Shown here piece by piece: positions 45,303-52,315 of a DNA stretch of 64,000 bases. The position numbers were made by a program, and so were the translations under genes. Numbering within the stretch: position 1 is the first letter of the stretch; every line of letters begins with the position of its first letter. The DNA is from Methyloversatilis sp. (GTDB taxonomy: Bacteria > Pseudomonadota > Gammaproteobacteria > Burkholderiales > Rhodocyclaceae): assembly GCF_030698125.1 (NCBI RefSeq), contig NZ_JAUYNV010000008.1:62001-126000 (forward strand), read 5' to 3'. Below the pieces are notes generated by a model, which saw nothing but the letters and a program-made list of their open reading frames with translations, was not told the origin of the DNA and did not search any database.

Positions 45303-45357
45303 AACGTTCTCCGCCGACGGCCTCACCCTCCACCTCTGAACGCACGGGGCGTTGCGC

Positions 45358-47226
45358 ATGACTGATGCGCCGCGCAAGATGGGGCGCTATGCGTTGGGGC
45401 GCGAGATCGGCCGCGGCGAACGCGGCGCCGTATTCGAGGCGACCGAAGCGGGGAGCGGTCGCCTGGTCGCGCTGAAGCTCTTCCGTACCGATCTCGCCGA
45501 TGACGTGCCGGCTTATGTCCGCGCACTCGGCGACCGTCTGCTGCACGCCTCGCAGCTGAATCATCCATGCATCGTGCGCATCATCGAACAAGGCGTCAGC
45601 GCCGATGACGGCACGCCCTGGGTCGCCATGGACCGCGTGGATGCGCGTTCGCTGCGGCAGCTGCTCGACGCACTGCCGCGCCTGTCCTTCGAATGGGTGT
45701 GCAGCATCGGCCTGCAGACCGCCGACGCGCTGGCGCACGCCCACGCCAGCGGTGTCACGCATGGCGGGCTGAAGGCGTCCAACCTGCTGGTCGACGGCGC
45801 CGGCCATGTGTCGGTGACCGACTTTGCGCTGCCCGCCCCGGCCCCGGATGCCTTGCCGGCGATGCCGCAGTATCTTTCACCCGAACAGGTACAGGGGCTT
45901 GCCCCCGACGCGCGTTCCGACGTGTTTTCGCTTGGTGCGCTGCTGTTCGAAATGCTGGCCGGCCGGCCCCCGTTCGGCTCGCCGCTCACCGGCACCTTGT
46001 CCAGCGTGCTGGAAAACATCGCCCACGTGCCCACACCCACGCCCAGCGCGATCGACCCGGACGTACCGGCCGAGCTTGACCTGCTGGTGATGAAGGCGCT
46101 TGCGAAATCGCCGGTCGACCGTTTCCAGACGGCCGCCGAGCTGGCCGACGCGCTGCGCTGGATCCGGCTCGAACCGGTTGCTGCCACGGTATTGAAAGTG
46201 ACCGAGCCGCCGCCGCGTGCGATCGAAAGTCCGGAGGTGGTGGATGGTCCGGAAAGCCTTCGCCGCGGTCAGTCGCAGAAACCCGCGCTGCCGGTCGACG
46301 ACGTGCTGGCCGCACTGGCAGCCGATATCGATGCCTTTTCTGCCCGCGGCTCCGCGCCGCCATCGATCGGCGTGGCGTCAAACGGCGCCACCCAGACCCG
46401 CCTGAAGCCACTGCGCGAGCAGGCGGCGCCGGGGCCGGCGTTCCCGACGCTGCACGATGAACCGGAGGTCACTGCGGGTGCGGCGGCACCCGCAGCGTCG
46501 AACGGCGCGGAGCCCGGTGCGCCGATGCCGGCGCCGGCATCGGCCGCATCGTCGCTGCTGGCCGATCTTGCCGGCGAGGCACAGCGCATCCGAGCGCACA
46601 ACGCGCAGATGCAGCGCGGCGAGCGGGCGGTACGCACCGAAGCGGAACAGGCGCTCGCCACCCGCCTTGTGCTGGTGCGCGACTACCTGACGCAGTTCGC
46701 CGGCCAGCTCAACGTGATCAAGCCGCAGATTGCACGCGACTATCCGCTGCTCGGTATGGGCGTGCTACGCGGCCTGGCCTGGCAGGCGTCCGACGTCAAC
46801 ACCCGCAATCGCGGCCCGGAGGCGCCGGATCAACTGGCCCGGGTGTCACTGGCCTGGCTGCTGCGCGGCCAGGCCCTGATGCGCTGCGAGCGCGAGCCGC
46901 AGGCGGCCAGCGCGCTGCGCGTGGCGCTGCGCGAACACGGCCTGCGCTTTGAGGAACAGGCATCGCGTGACGAACAGAACCGCCTGCGTGCCCAGGTGTT
47001 CGATATCGCGCCCGAAGTGCGCGGCCGGGTCGAACTGAACGCCGATTACACCCGGCTGACGCTGCGCCTGACCTTGCAGAATGTCGAACGTTTCGGCATC
47101 GTGGATTACCAGCCGCCGGCAGAAGACAACGGCACCGAATGGCTGGACGAACTGGCGAAACTGATGCTCGGTCAACCGAGTCGCTTTGCCGCGCTTGCCC
47201 GGCTGATCGTTCCGACACCGCAGTAG
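45358..47226 (+). CDS. Ser/Thr protein kinase-fold protein, probable pseudokinase
   Basis: 'GRYALGREIGRGERGAVFEA', VALK lysine, 'YLSPEQVQG', but HRD replaced by HGG and DFG by DFA. Confidence 0.8.
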   Translation: MTDAPRKMGRYALGREIGRGERGAVFEATEAGSGRLVALKLFRTDLADDVPAYVRALGDRLLHASQLNHPCIVRIIEQGVSADDGTPWVAMDRVDARSLRQLLDALPRLSFEWVCSIGLQTADALAHAHASGVTHGGLKASNLLVDGAGHVSVTDFALPAPAPDALPAMPQYLSPEQVQGLAPDARSDVFSLGALLFEMLAGRPPFGSPLTGTLSSVLENIAHVPTPTPSAIDPDVPAELDLLVMKALAKSPVDRFQTAAELADALRWIRLEPVAATVLKVTEPPPRAIESPEVVDGPESLRRGQSQKPALPVDDVLAALAADIDAFSARGSAPPSIGVASNGATQTRLKPLREQAAPGPAFPTLHDEPEVTAGAAAPAASNGAEPGAPMPAPASAASSLLADLAGEAQRIRAHNAQMQRGERAVRTEAEQALATRLVLVRDYLTQFAGQLNVIKPQIARDYPLLGMGVLRGLAWQASDVNTRNRGPEAPDQLARVSLAWLLRGQALMRCEREPQAASALRVALREHGLRFEEQASRDEQNRLRAQVFDIAPEVRGRVELNADYTRLTLRLTLQNVERFGIVDYQPPAEDNGTEWLDELAKLMLGQPSRFAALARLIVPTPQ

Positions 47227-47343
47227 TGGCACGGTTGATGCATCGAATGACGCATCAACCGGGCGCGTGCGGACCCGACTCAACTTCCCGGAGCGCGCGA
47301 CGTTAGACCTTCAGGTCGGTGCAGCAACATCGGGAGACGAATC

Positions 47344-48324
47344 ATGCGAGGGGCCGAGATGCAGGGGGCTGAGTTTCAGATTCCACTGGCCGAATGCCGC
47401 GAAATCTACAGCGTTGGCGCGGTCGACCGGGCGATGGAATCGGGTGCCACATCACGCAACGAGTCGCTGGTGGCGTACTACGAAAAGATGAAGCAGCTGG
47501 GTGGCGTGCGCTATGTCGTCAAGCCGTCGTCGTTCGACGGACTTGATCCGCTGTACGCCCGCTGTCCGAATTTCGCACCCGTGCTCGACGATCTCAAACG
47601 CTATCTTGCGCTGGCGGTCGCCGGCAACGAGCCGATGCATTTCACGCCCATCCTGCTGCTCGGCGAGCCGGGCATCGGCAAGACCCATTTCGCGAAGCAA
47701 CTCGCCAATGTGCTCGGTACAGGCTTCGAGTTCGTATCGATGTCGTCGCTGACCGCTGGCTGGATCCTGAGCGGCACCTCGTCGCAGTGGTCGCACGCGC
47801 GACCCGGCAAGGTTGCACAGGCGCTGGTGTCCGGCGACTACGCCAATCCGCTGCTGGTGCTCGACGAGGTCGACAAGGCGGGTGGCGACCCGCGCTATGA
47901 CCCGATGGGTGCGCTGTACGGCTTGCTGGAGCAGGACACCGCGCGCCAGTTCAAGGACGAATTCATCGAGGTCGACATGGATGCCAGCCACATCATGTGG
48001 GTGTCCACAGCGAATGACGAGCGATCGATTCCCGAGCCCATCCTGAGTCGCATGAATGTGTACACCGTGCCGCGACCGGATCACGACCAGGCCTGTGCCA
48101 TCGCGCGCACGCTTTACGGCGAGATTCTCGCCGCACATCACTGGGGCTTCGACGAGGATGCGCCGGAAGATGTGATCGACGGTCTGGCCCATGTGCCGCC
48201 GCGCGACATGCGCAAGGTGCTGATGGCTGCTTTCGGCAATGCCAAACTGGAACGGCGTGACCACTTGCTGCCGGCCGATCTGGACGCCGGCCGCGCCACA
48301 CGGCAGAAGAAGATAGGGTTCTAG
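47344..48324 (+). CDS. AAA+ ATPase (Lon-like ATPase domain)
   Basis: 'LLGEPGIGKTHFAKQLA' Walker A, 'NPLLVLDEVDKA' Walker B, sensor 'VSTAND'. Confidence 0.85.
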   Translation: MRGAEMQGAEFQIPLAECREIYSVGAVDRAMESGATSRNESLVAYYEKMKQLGGVRYVVKPSSFDGLDPLYARCPNFAPVLDDLKRYLALAVAGNEPMHFTPILLLGEPGIGKTHFAKQLANVLGTGFEFVSMSSLTAGWILSGTSSQWSHARPGKVAQALVSGDYANPLLVLDEVDKAGGDPRYDPMGALYGLLEQDTARQFKDEFIEVDMDASHIMWVSTANDERSIPEPILSRMNVYTVPRPDHDQACAIARTLYGEILAAHHWGFDEDAPEDVIDGLAHVPPRDMRKVLMAAFGNAKLERRDHLLPADLDAGRATRQKKIGF

Positions 48325-49495: not shown

Positions 49496-52141
49496 CTACT
49501 TGACCCGCATGCCCGGCGCCGCACCGCTGTCCGGCGACAGGATGAACAGGCCCGGCACTTCGCCCTTGTCGTCGGATGCCGCCAGCACCATGCCCTCAGA
49601 CAGGCCGAATTTCATCTTGCGCGGTGCGAGATTGGCCACCATGACAGTCAGCCGCCCGACCAGCAGTGCCGGGTCATAGGCCGACTTGATGCCGGCGAAT
49701 ACCTGGCGCGGCGTGTCTTCGCCGATGTCGAGCTGCAGGCGCAGCAGCTTGTCCGCGCCCTCGACATGGTCGGCCGCGACGATCTTTGCGATGCGCAGCT
49801 CGACCTTCGAGAAGTCGTCGATGGAGATGAAGCGCCCCTCTCCCGCATCAGCGGGAGAGGGGCCGGGGGCGAGGGCAGATGCGTTCGTCACCGCGCGCCA
49901 GATCGATTCGAGCACGGCTTCGGTCTGTTGCAGCACCTCGTTGTCCCAGTAGCGCAGTACCCGAATACCGTGCTCCGCCAGTGAGCGATCGCGCTCGCGG
50001 TCCTTCAGCGCGGCGTCGGCGTGCTGACCGCCGTCGAGTTCGACGGCGATTTTCTGTTCTGCGGCATAGAAATCGAGGATGGCCTTCGCGCCACCGCCAA
50101 GATCGAACGGGTGCTGGCGGCGGAACTTCGCGTTGCCGATCTGGCGATCGCGCAGCAAGGACCAGATCAGTGCTTCGGCATCGGTCTGACCGGCGCGCAG
50201 CTTGCGGGCCAGTTCGACCAGCGATGCGGGCGCGGAGGCCGGTTTGCCCTCACCCGTCCGCGCTGGGGCGCGGCCACCCTCTCCCGCTGATGCGGGCGAG
50301 GGATTTGCAGCGTCGCGGGTTTTGTCGGAATCGCCTTGCAACCGCTTTGCGGCGCTGTGGCTTTTCGCCCCCTCTCCCGCATCAGCGGGAGAGGGCTGGG
50401 GTGAGGGCAGCAGACTTTCCTTGTTGGCGTCGACCAGTGCGATCACCTGTTTGGGGTCGATGCGGGTCATCAGGTGCTTGTAGTCGTTGATCGTGTGGCC
50501 GGCGGCGAGCGTGGCGCCGAAGTCGTCCCAGCACACCGGCGCGATGTTCAGGAAGCGCTCGACCTCGGCGGCCAGATGCGGCAGCACCGGCTTGAGCAGC
50601 ACGGTGAGCTGGCGGAACAGTTCGATCGCGGTGCTGCAGACGGATTGCAGTTTTTCGTCCTGGCCGTCCTGCTTGGCGAGCACCCACGGTGCATGGTCAT
50701 TGACGAACACGTTGGCCTGGTCGGCGCAGGCCATGACCTCGCGCAGCGCGCGCGCATAGTCACGCGACTCGTAGGCATCACGGATCGACACCTCGTGCCA
50801 GTGAAATGGCACGGTCGGCGCCGACAACTTGCCCGCAAAGCGCTTCGTGATGAAGCCCGCGCAGCGGCTCGCGATATTGATGTACTTGCCCACCAGATCC
50901 GAATTCACCCGCGCGACGAAGTCGTCGAGGTTCAGGTCGATGTCTTCCATCGAGCCGTTGAGCTTGGCGGCATAGTAATAGCGCAGCCATTCCGGGTTCA
51001 GGCCGAGATCGAGATAGCTCTGCGCGGTGATGAAGGTGCCGCGGCTCTTGCTCATCTTCTCGCCATTGACCGTCAGGAAGCCGTGCGCGTTGATCTGCGT
51101 CGGTGTGCGGTAGCCGGAGTGTTCGAGCATGGCGGGCCAGAACAGGGCGTGGAAGTACAGGATGTCCTTGCCGATGAAGTGAACCATTTCGGTGCCGGCC
51201 GCTTTCGCGCCCGCGGCATCGAGGAAGTCCGCTTCGCTGATGTCATTGCCGAGCGCCTTCTGCTTCGCCACGTAGTGGCGGAAGCTGCCGAAGTAGCCGA
51301 CCGGGGCGTCGAGCCAGACGTAGAAGAACTTGTTGTCGGTGCCCGGGATGCGGAAGCCGAAGTAGGGCGCGTCGCGCGAAATGTCCCAGTCGGACAGGCG
51401 GTTGTCGCCCGGCTCGCCCAGCCATTCCTTCATCTTGTTGGCGGCTTCCGGCTGCAGCCGGTCCGAGCCCTGGGTGAAGTCGCGCAGGAACTGCTCGCAC
51501 TGCGGCGCCGACAGACGGAAGAAGTGGTGTTCGCTGGCGCGCCGCTCGGGCGCCGCGCCGGACACCACCGAATAGGCGTTCTTCAGTTCGGTCGGCGCGT
51601 AGGTGGCGCCGCACACTTCGCAGGAATCGCCATACTGGTCTTTGGCCGAACACTTCGGGCACTCGCCCTTGATGAAGCGGTCGGGCAGGAACATTTCCTT
51701 CACCGGGTCGTAGAACTGCTCGACCGAGCGCTGCGCGATCAGGTCGCCGGCCTTCAGCTTGGCGTAGATGTCTTCGCAGAAGGCACGGTTCTCGTCGGAA
51801 TCGGTCTGGTGGTAATTGTCGAAGCTGACCAGGAAGCCACCGAGTTCGCCCCGGCCCTGTTTCCATGTGGCCTGTACGTCGAGCCCGCCGAAGAAGTCGC
51901 GCGCGTGTTCGTGCAGCACGCGCTCGACCAGCTGGCGCGGTGTGATGCCTTCCTTCTCTGCGCGCAGCATGATGGGTGTGCCGTGCTGGTCGTCGGCGCC
52001 GACGTAATGGACCTCGTGGCCGCGCATGCGCTGAAAGCGCACCCAGATATCTGTCTGGATGTATTCGACCAGATGACCGAGGTGGATGGCGCCATTGGCG
52101 TAGGGCAGGGCGCTGGTGACGAGCAGGCGGCGGCGGGACAT
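49496..52141 (-). CDS. metG: Methionyl-tRNA synthetase with in-frame DUF559 endonuclease-domain insertion
   Basis: '[36 protein letters not shown]', '[10 protein letters not shown]'; C-terminal tRNA-binding domain '[23 protein letters not shown]'; insertion of ~190 aa between them. Confidence 0.93.
49835..49862 (+). repeat. Palindrome R1: cccctctcccgc-atca-gcgggagagggg
   Basis: 12-bp perfect arms, followed by 'ccgggggcgagggcag'. Confidence 0.95.
50277..50302 (-). repeat. Palindrome R2 (opposite orientation): ccctctcccgc-tgat-gcgggcgaggg
   Basis: 11-bp arms, one mismatch; preceded by 'gccctcacccgtccgcgctggggcgcggcca'. Confidence 0.9.
50370..50395 (+). repeat. Palindrome R3: ccctctcccgc-atca-gcgggagaggg
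   Basis: 11-bp perfect arms, followed by 'ctggggtgagggcag' (same orientation and tail as R1). Confidence 0.95.
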
Positions 52142-52315
52142 GGCGGGCGGCGAGGTGGTGGCCAAAGCAGGAAAGCCCGCAATTCTACTGCCCGCGCGCG
52201 GGCTTCCGGGATAAGGACGGCGATGATCGGTTAAACTGGAGTAAATCAATCAGGTATTGCCTGCAGCGGCGCCGCATGACGCGGCCCGGCGGGCACACCG
52301 CCGCCCGGAGTTCAT

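Follow-up and report, generated by a model that had tools for sequence, protein, structure and literature searches.

The methionyl-tRNA synthetase gene (metG) within a 64,000-nucleotide stretch of Methyloversatilis sp. DNA (hereafter the window) carries a DUF559 nuclease domain inside its open reading frame, bounded by short palindromes. We read the metG segment as probably a member of a family of small, selfish mobile elements, each consisting of a bare DUF559 gene between REP-like inverted ends. In the best reading, the nuclease is a predicted Vsr-fold enzyme of the EDxHD/PD-(D/E)XK type, and each end would combine a REP-like palindrome with a CCCTCNCCC tag. Support at the level of sequence is shown by the architecture, the palindrome association, empty sites, patchy recurrence at the same linker, in-frame copies in unrelated genes and purifying selection, and, in one genome (G132), by discrete duplicated copies that have inverted ends and are bordered by 9-bp duplications.

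The open frame of metG spans 49496-52249 (917 aa), and the gene itself 49499..52141 (881 aa from a likely ATG at 52141), all on the reverse strand, as are the domains that follow. The frame is stop-free through to the end of the C-terminal tRNA-binding domain. Within this single frame Pfam identified, in order, tRNA-synt_1g (3e-134), DUF559 (2.6e-28) and tRNA_bind (2e-23). The catalytic core (PF09334, 50861..52123, residues 43-463 of the 917-aa frame) retains its HIGH and KMSKS signatures in invariant columns, and the tRNA-binding domain (metG_C_term; PF01588, TIGR00399) occupies 49499..49831. DUF559 (PF04480, 49889..50218) lies in the linker preceding the latter and matches residues 678-787 with 98.5 bits, against a curated cut-off of 20.6. 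An earlier note, made from the letters of the window, had described metG as intact with an in-frame DUF559 domain, and this is what we found. Its proposal of an in-frame insertion into metG stands as regards the frame, but the segment of about 590 bp (49832..50421) replaces the native linker of ~31 aa seen in empty congeners rather than merely interrupting it. The full-length DUF559 match in metG is the only one in the genome, and no second metG was present among the listed matches. Downstream of metG, positions 45352-48324 hold a serine/threonine protein kinase gene and then an AAA/Lon-type ATPase gene, ordinary as read.

The palindrome at metG, CCCTCTCCCGCNNNNGCGGGAGAGGG, is present in three copies, one of them with one mismatch; chance alone would give none, as judged from 100 dinucleotide-shuffled versions of the window. 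R1 (49836..49861) lies on the 3' side of DUF559 in the direction of the gene and is read through as PSPADAGEG. R2 (50277..50302), inverted relative to R1 and bearing the mismatch, lies on the 5' side, and R3 (50370..50395) lies outside R2. A tag, GGGCGAGGG, is found between R1 and DUF559 (49867..49875) and another, CCCTCACCC, between DUF559 and R2 (50247..50255), both facing inward, while GGGTGAGGG lies outside R3 (50399..50407), such that the R3-R2 pair has outward tags. The three bounding copies previously described, with R2 inverted, were thus located, but R3 is only an extra outer copy, since the inward tags on the two sides of DUF559 belong to R2 and R1. Genome-wide there are 29 such palindromes, and the one complete DUF559 therefore sits among 3 of the 29. 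Five of the six reading frames through the 26-nt palindrome are open. Palindromes so nearly free of stops would help in-frame insertion, and the in-frame position may itself reflect survivorship, not a feature of the element.

Pfam matches on the metG frame included no intein or splicing domain. No Rfam intron matched the cassette or 20 related loci, where nothing reached the gathering threshold and sub-threshold matches were weak and to hairpin-type families only. A model of the whole protein shows disorder (pLDDT about 30) in both linkers flanking DUF559. The open frame, the modelled disorder and the lack of a Pfam splicing domain are all consistent with putative retention of the domain in the mature protein.

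The nuclease core had been described as intact, and it is: the window domain keeps the invariant E15, D49, E60, D62, G63 and H66, among others, along with Q65, and the E-x-D-G-x-Q-H core is present. The domain was modelled with a pLDDT of 89, and the model matched NGO0050 (3hrl; E 8e-7) and, by Foldseek, the catalytic domain of I-Bth0305I (3r3p; prob 1.00, E 1.1e-3, TM 0.66). I-Bth0305I was also matched by sequence profile (hmmsearch E 1.5e-4). Among relatives with a solved structure and a known function, this homing endonuclease is the closest.

A single-copy fusion in one draft genome could at first sight be taken for a long-established domain fusion of the usual kind, or for an artefact of assembly or annotation. 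We consider either very improbable, because the same fusion occurs in independent genomes, ten congeners are empty and the palindromes differ by genus. Among 13 genomes of the genus, the insert is present in three (G000, G003 and G007) and a homologous linker of ~31 residues in the other ten, so the alignment of relatives suggested in the earlier note reveals empty sites and not a segment carried by all. An assembly chimera at metG was ruled out by the same structure in G003 and G007. The fused congeners hold 29, 32 and 20 palindrome copies. Nine of the DUF559-negative congeners hold 0-1, and the tenth, G002, holds 27 but lacks any match to DUF559, perhaps having lost its nuclease or using a different one. 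Two members of other genera of the family Rhodocyclaceae (G013 and G016) carry a palindrome alone in the metG linker, read as PSPAGGEG and PSPSKGEG.

The metG gene of G007 (L019) has a further peculiarity. Directly upstream of its insert, ~360-450 nt have been replaced and are only ~60% identical to all congeners, with flanks on either side at 92-96% identity, which marks a recombination patch next to the insertion. The patch caused a first MetRS tree to place G007 outside its genus, and the tree used below was built without it.

The same linker is filled well beyond the genus. When 399 genomes of the order were searched with the 3' part of metG, fused copies were found in G533, G814 and G673 of a single genus, in which G490 and G643 are empty; in G527, with an empty congener in G098; in G780, with G722 empty; and in G787, with G610 empty. 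Fused copies also occur in G067, from the family of the window, and in a betaproteobacterial MAG from Umea (L193). Every fused frame is intact, and the cores of the linker palindromes differ between genera. Altogether, the metG linker holds DUF559 and palindromes in at least seven genera (g1; G067; G533/G814/G673; G527; G780; G787; Umea2). A 35-sequence MetRS tree requires 10 changes of the fused state, or at least seven by its well-supported branches, and fused copies cluster on it no more than shuffled labels do. The metG DUF559 domains form only two clades (support 98/97 and 90/81). For several cross-family pairs, DUF559 is closer than the MetRS body (71 vs 55% for G527-G787), although G787 and Umea2 have unusually divergent MetRS bodies. 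The one AU test of incongruence between DUF559 and MetRS, placing Umea2 with G787, was not significant (p 0.19). We read this distribution as the pattern of repeated gain or exchange at one site, with loss also possible.

Insertion is not confined to metG: about twenty other host genes were found across bacteria. Hosts with in-frame copies confirmed by Pfam are asnB, ygiQ, tatD, dnaG (near the C-terminus), an N6_N4 methylase, a second methylase, a bioF-type aminotransferase, two hsdM, three hsdS, hsdR, a DUF1156 protein and a selD-type AIRS. Less certain, from flanking protein sequence only, are recG, valS (in Anaerolineales and Rickettsiales), bioA, hrpA, rimM, metH, priA, an hsdR (L099) and further hsdM and hsdS. 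Of 123 DUF559 matches sampled without regard to fusion, 20 are fused in frame to a host gene, 16 of them with a motif palindrome. An empty site is again available for asnB: G030 carries the DUF559 cassette at a first site and a four-unit palindrome array at a second, and its congener G485 is empty at the first and has a palindrome alone at the second.

Two host loci deserve separate mention. The asnB region of G030 (L312) contains a second, truncated asnB N-terminus with palindromes ~2 kb upstream of the DUF559-bearing gene, and its palindrome units of ~41 nt are arrayed such that three units (123 nt) preserve the frame. The hsdS genes of L140, L144, L149 and L227 all have the DUF559 cassette at one shared place, past an ALFKSWFIDF or ALFKDWFVDF segment, making this another recurrent linker site.

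Whether such fusions serve their hosts bears on how selection is read. Among the three fused species, dN/dS is 0.06-0.21 over the 110 aa of DUF559 and 0.10-0.15 for the adjacent tRNA-binding domain, values that mark the DUF559 of metG as under purifying selection. Equally expected of a useful domain, such constraint, together with intact catalytic residues, the many copies in restriction-modification genes and a Caulobacter Vsr-like protein linked to cytosine methylation (PMC12907096), would suit a MetRS-tethered nuclease maintained for its use to the host, for example in Vsr-like mismatch repair or defence. We think this improbable, given a distribution that is patchy within genera, hosts as unrelated as dnaG, bioF, selD and asnB, and copies that are typically bounded by repeats. 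PADLOC defence models matched only a weak, short stretch of DpdF, and PHROGs gave only weak HNH-type matches. For a defence role we found no support beyond the frequency of insertion into restriction-modification genes.

Palindromes of the form CTCNCCC-N2-12-GGGNGAG are concentrated around DUF559. Across the 123 loci there are 4.9 per kb in the 100 bp next to the domain, 1.5 between 100 and 250 bp away and 0.06-0.15 farther out than 250 bp, a roughly 50-fold difference between the nearest and farthest zones. This motif lies within 250 bp of DUF559 at 76 of the 123 loci and on both sides at 49. Of a further 80 loci, picked through an alignment rich in fused copies, 66 have it within 200 bp and 45 on both sides. 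About 38% of DUF559 loci are without the motif, and most of those have some hairpin. Any perfect 8-bp hairpin within 200 bp was found at 111 of the 123 loci (4.76 vs 0.39 per kb in distant flanks, 12-fold). Most CCCTCNCCC tags point inward (44 of 53 upstream, 42 of 60 downstream). A comparison of 369 genomes of the class found palindromes in 62 of the 73 with DUF559 and in 73 of the 296 without (odds ratio 17, p 2e-21, kinship ignored); reversed control patterns were nearly absent. Mapped on the DUF559 tree, stem type (CTCTCCC vs CTCCCCC) changes 17 times, against 22.3 when shuffled, a value reached by 0.05% of shuffles. Coupling between stem type and DUF559 phylogeny is only modest. In another DUF559 lineage (L168, L171, L182 and relatives), flanking peptides such as PPDKGGKGG, PPAPLVRGE and SPLTRGAGG suggest another family of palindromes, one that does not fit the CTCNCCC motif.

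Traces of movement were sought among copies within single genomes. In G132, G448 and G459, similarity between DUF559 copies is confined to the domain and its ends, at 98.3% over 534 nt in G132, 88% over 422 nt in G448 and 71-82% over 406-430 nt in G459. G132 contains three near-identical elements, two of exactly 532 bp and a third of 494 bp, whose ends are inverted repeats of ~80 bp starting CAAAGGTATC. Both 532-bp elements are bordered by exact 9-bp duplications of different targets (GTGCAGATT and GTTTGTAAC), and the duplication at the 494-bp element matches at 8 of 9 positions. The end sequence occurs six times in the G132 genome, precisely as the ends of these three elements. Terminal inverted repeats with target-site duplication were thus found in G132; at metG, loss of the native linker would mask any such duplication. 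A duplication scan of 94 other loci yielded 9 at 8 bp or more against 3.2, a weak excess confounded by repeat arrays. In two G448 elements (L088 and L121), the terminal repeats differ between copies, and the outer arms pair perfectly within each (TTAGTCC/GGACTAA vs TGATTCC/GGAATCA), as if one end had templated the other.

Duplications of 9 bp are typical of DDE transposases, which raises the alternative that another enzyme moves the palindromes and inverted ends, with DUF559 a passenger that hitchhikes or recombines into genic palindromes. Palindromes in DUF559-negative genomes would suit this account, as would those in genes lacking DUF559 (the metG linkers of G013 and G016 and the second asnB site of G485). 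We nevertheless judge it unlikely. All copies of the end sequence in G132 are parts of DUF559 elements, and the close association of DUF559 with palindromes across many genera would be left to explain. Nor do matches to Y1 transposases track the palindromes within the genus. The 85 kb surrounding 20 Y1-transposase loci, some of them from palindrome-rich genomes, contained no motif palindromes. On these grounds a RAYT was rejected as the mover of these palindromes.

Returning to an element that spreads by its own nuclease, we counted in its favor the association and co-occurrence with palindromes, the Y1 control, patchiness, the variety of other hosts, the G132 copies, the I-Bth0305I fold, dN/dS and the asnB empty site. 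Against it we counted the restriction of clear duplications to G132, the fused minority of 20 in 123, the loci lacking the motif, the palindromes in 73 DUF559-negative genomes and in G002, the AU result, and purifying selection. The nuclease would drive spread by cutting either empty alleles or the folded ends of the element, after which repair would copy the element in; homing at metG and transposition to new sites are the modes we envisage. Shorter, palindrome-only copies would be non-autonomous derivatives. With no splicing, DUF559 would stay in the host protein as a tethered passenger. Nearly stop-free ends and a location in flexible linkers would account for persistence inside essential genes, and loss would be rare, since a cell could survive it only through an exact deletion that keeps the frame. 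The earlier proposal of a nuclease-palindrome cassette that preserves the frame of its host is strongly supported by the empty congeners, the recurrence at metG, the other hosts, the G132 elements and the kinship to a homing endonuclease. Its comparison with homing holds for behavior, which is patchy and same-site; cleavage of the empty site is putative.

These data suggest a widespread mobile element that lives inside working proteins and is apparently undescribed. Many palindromic repeat families have no known mobilizing enzyme, and DUF559, tied to palindromes and duplicated with them as a unit, is a testable candidate. If so, read-through would be a third route for a selfish gene into an essential gene, beside introns and inteins. 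The insertions also form a natural series of tolerated domain insertions useful for protein engineering, and annotated DUF559 'fusions' may be insertions rather than functional architectures. An open-access literature search found no report linking DUF559 with palindromes, an absence that is no proof of novelty. Combined with the lack of either known tag, it raises the possibility, which we hold tentatively, of a categorically new class: a minimal nuclease gene, bounded by REP-like ends, that homes into or transposes among linkers of essential proteins, remains unspliced in the mature protein, and supplies the enzyme lacking for a large class of orphan palindromes in several phyla.

Several known systems share parts of this arrangement. 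Rickettsia palindromic elements (RPE; PMC10969869) and intragenic GTAG and CGTC REPs (PMC3733652) likewise place palindromes in frame within linkers or loops of unrelated, often essential genes, such as those for tRNA synthetases and repair. Those are short (about 150 bp or less for RPE) and enzyme-free, whereas here palindromes flank a nuclease gene. Our palindromes carry neither tag: GTAG accompanies 3 and CGTC 14 of 303, with about 40 expected at uniform base composition. For CGTC repeats, the mobilizing enzyme is not known (PMC3733652). Units of REPs with a RAYT transposase (PMC3116915, PMC3733652), or REPtrons, are similar in having a single-copy enzyme gene between inverted copies of a genome-dispersed palindrome. 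Unlike them, the enzyme here is of the DUF559/Vsr fold and not an HUH Y1 transposase, and the palindromes are unrelated and absent at Y1 loci. DUF559 proteins, with NGO0050 (PDB 3hrl) and Caulobacter VsrA (PMC12907096), share the family or fold, but are usually encoded by stand-alone genes. EDxHD homing endonucleases, which include I-Bth0305I (PMC3943268), and inteins resemble the metG element in their related nuclease fold and in one conserved site patchily filled, with relatives empty. The DUF559 element differs from both in its many target genes, its palindromic ends and the lack of any visible DNA-binding extension, and, with no intron or intein around DUF559, it would not be spliced.
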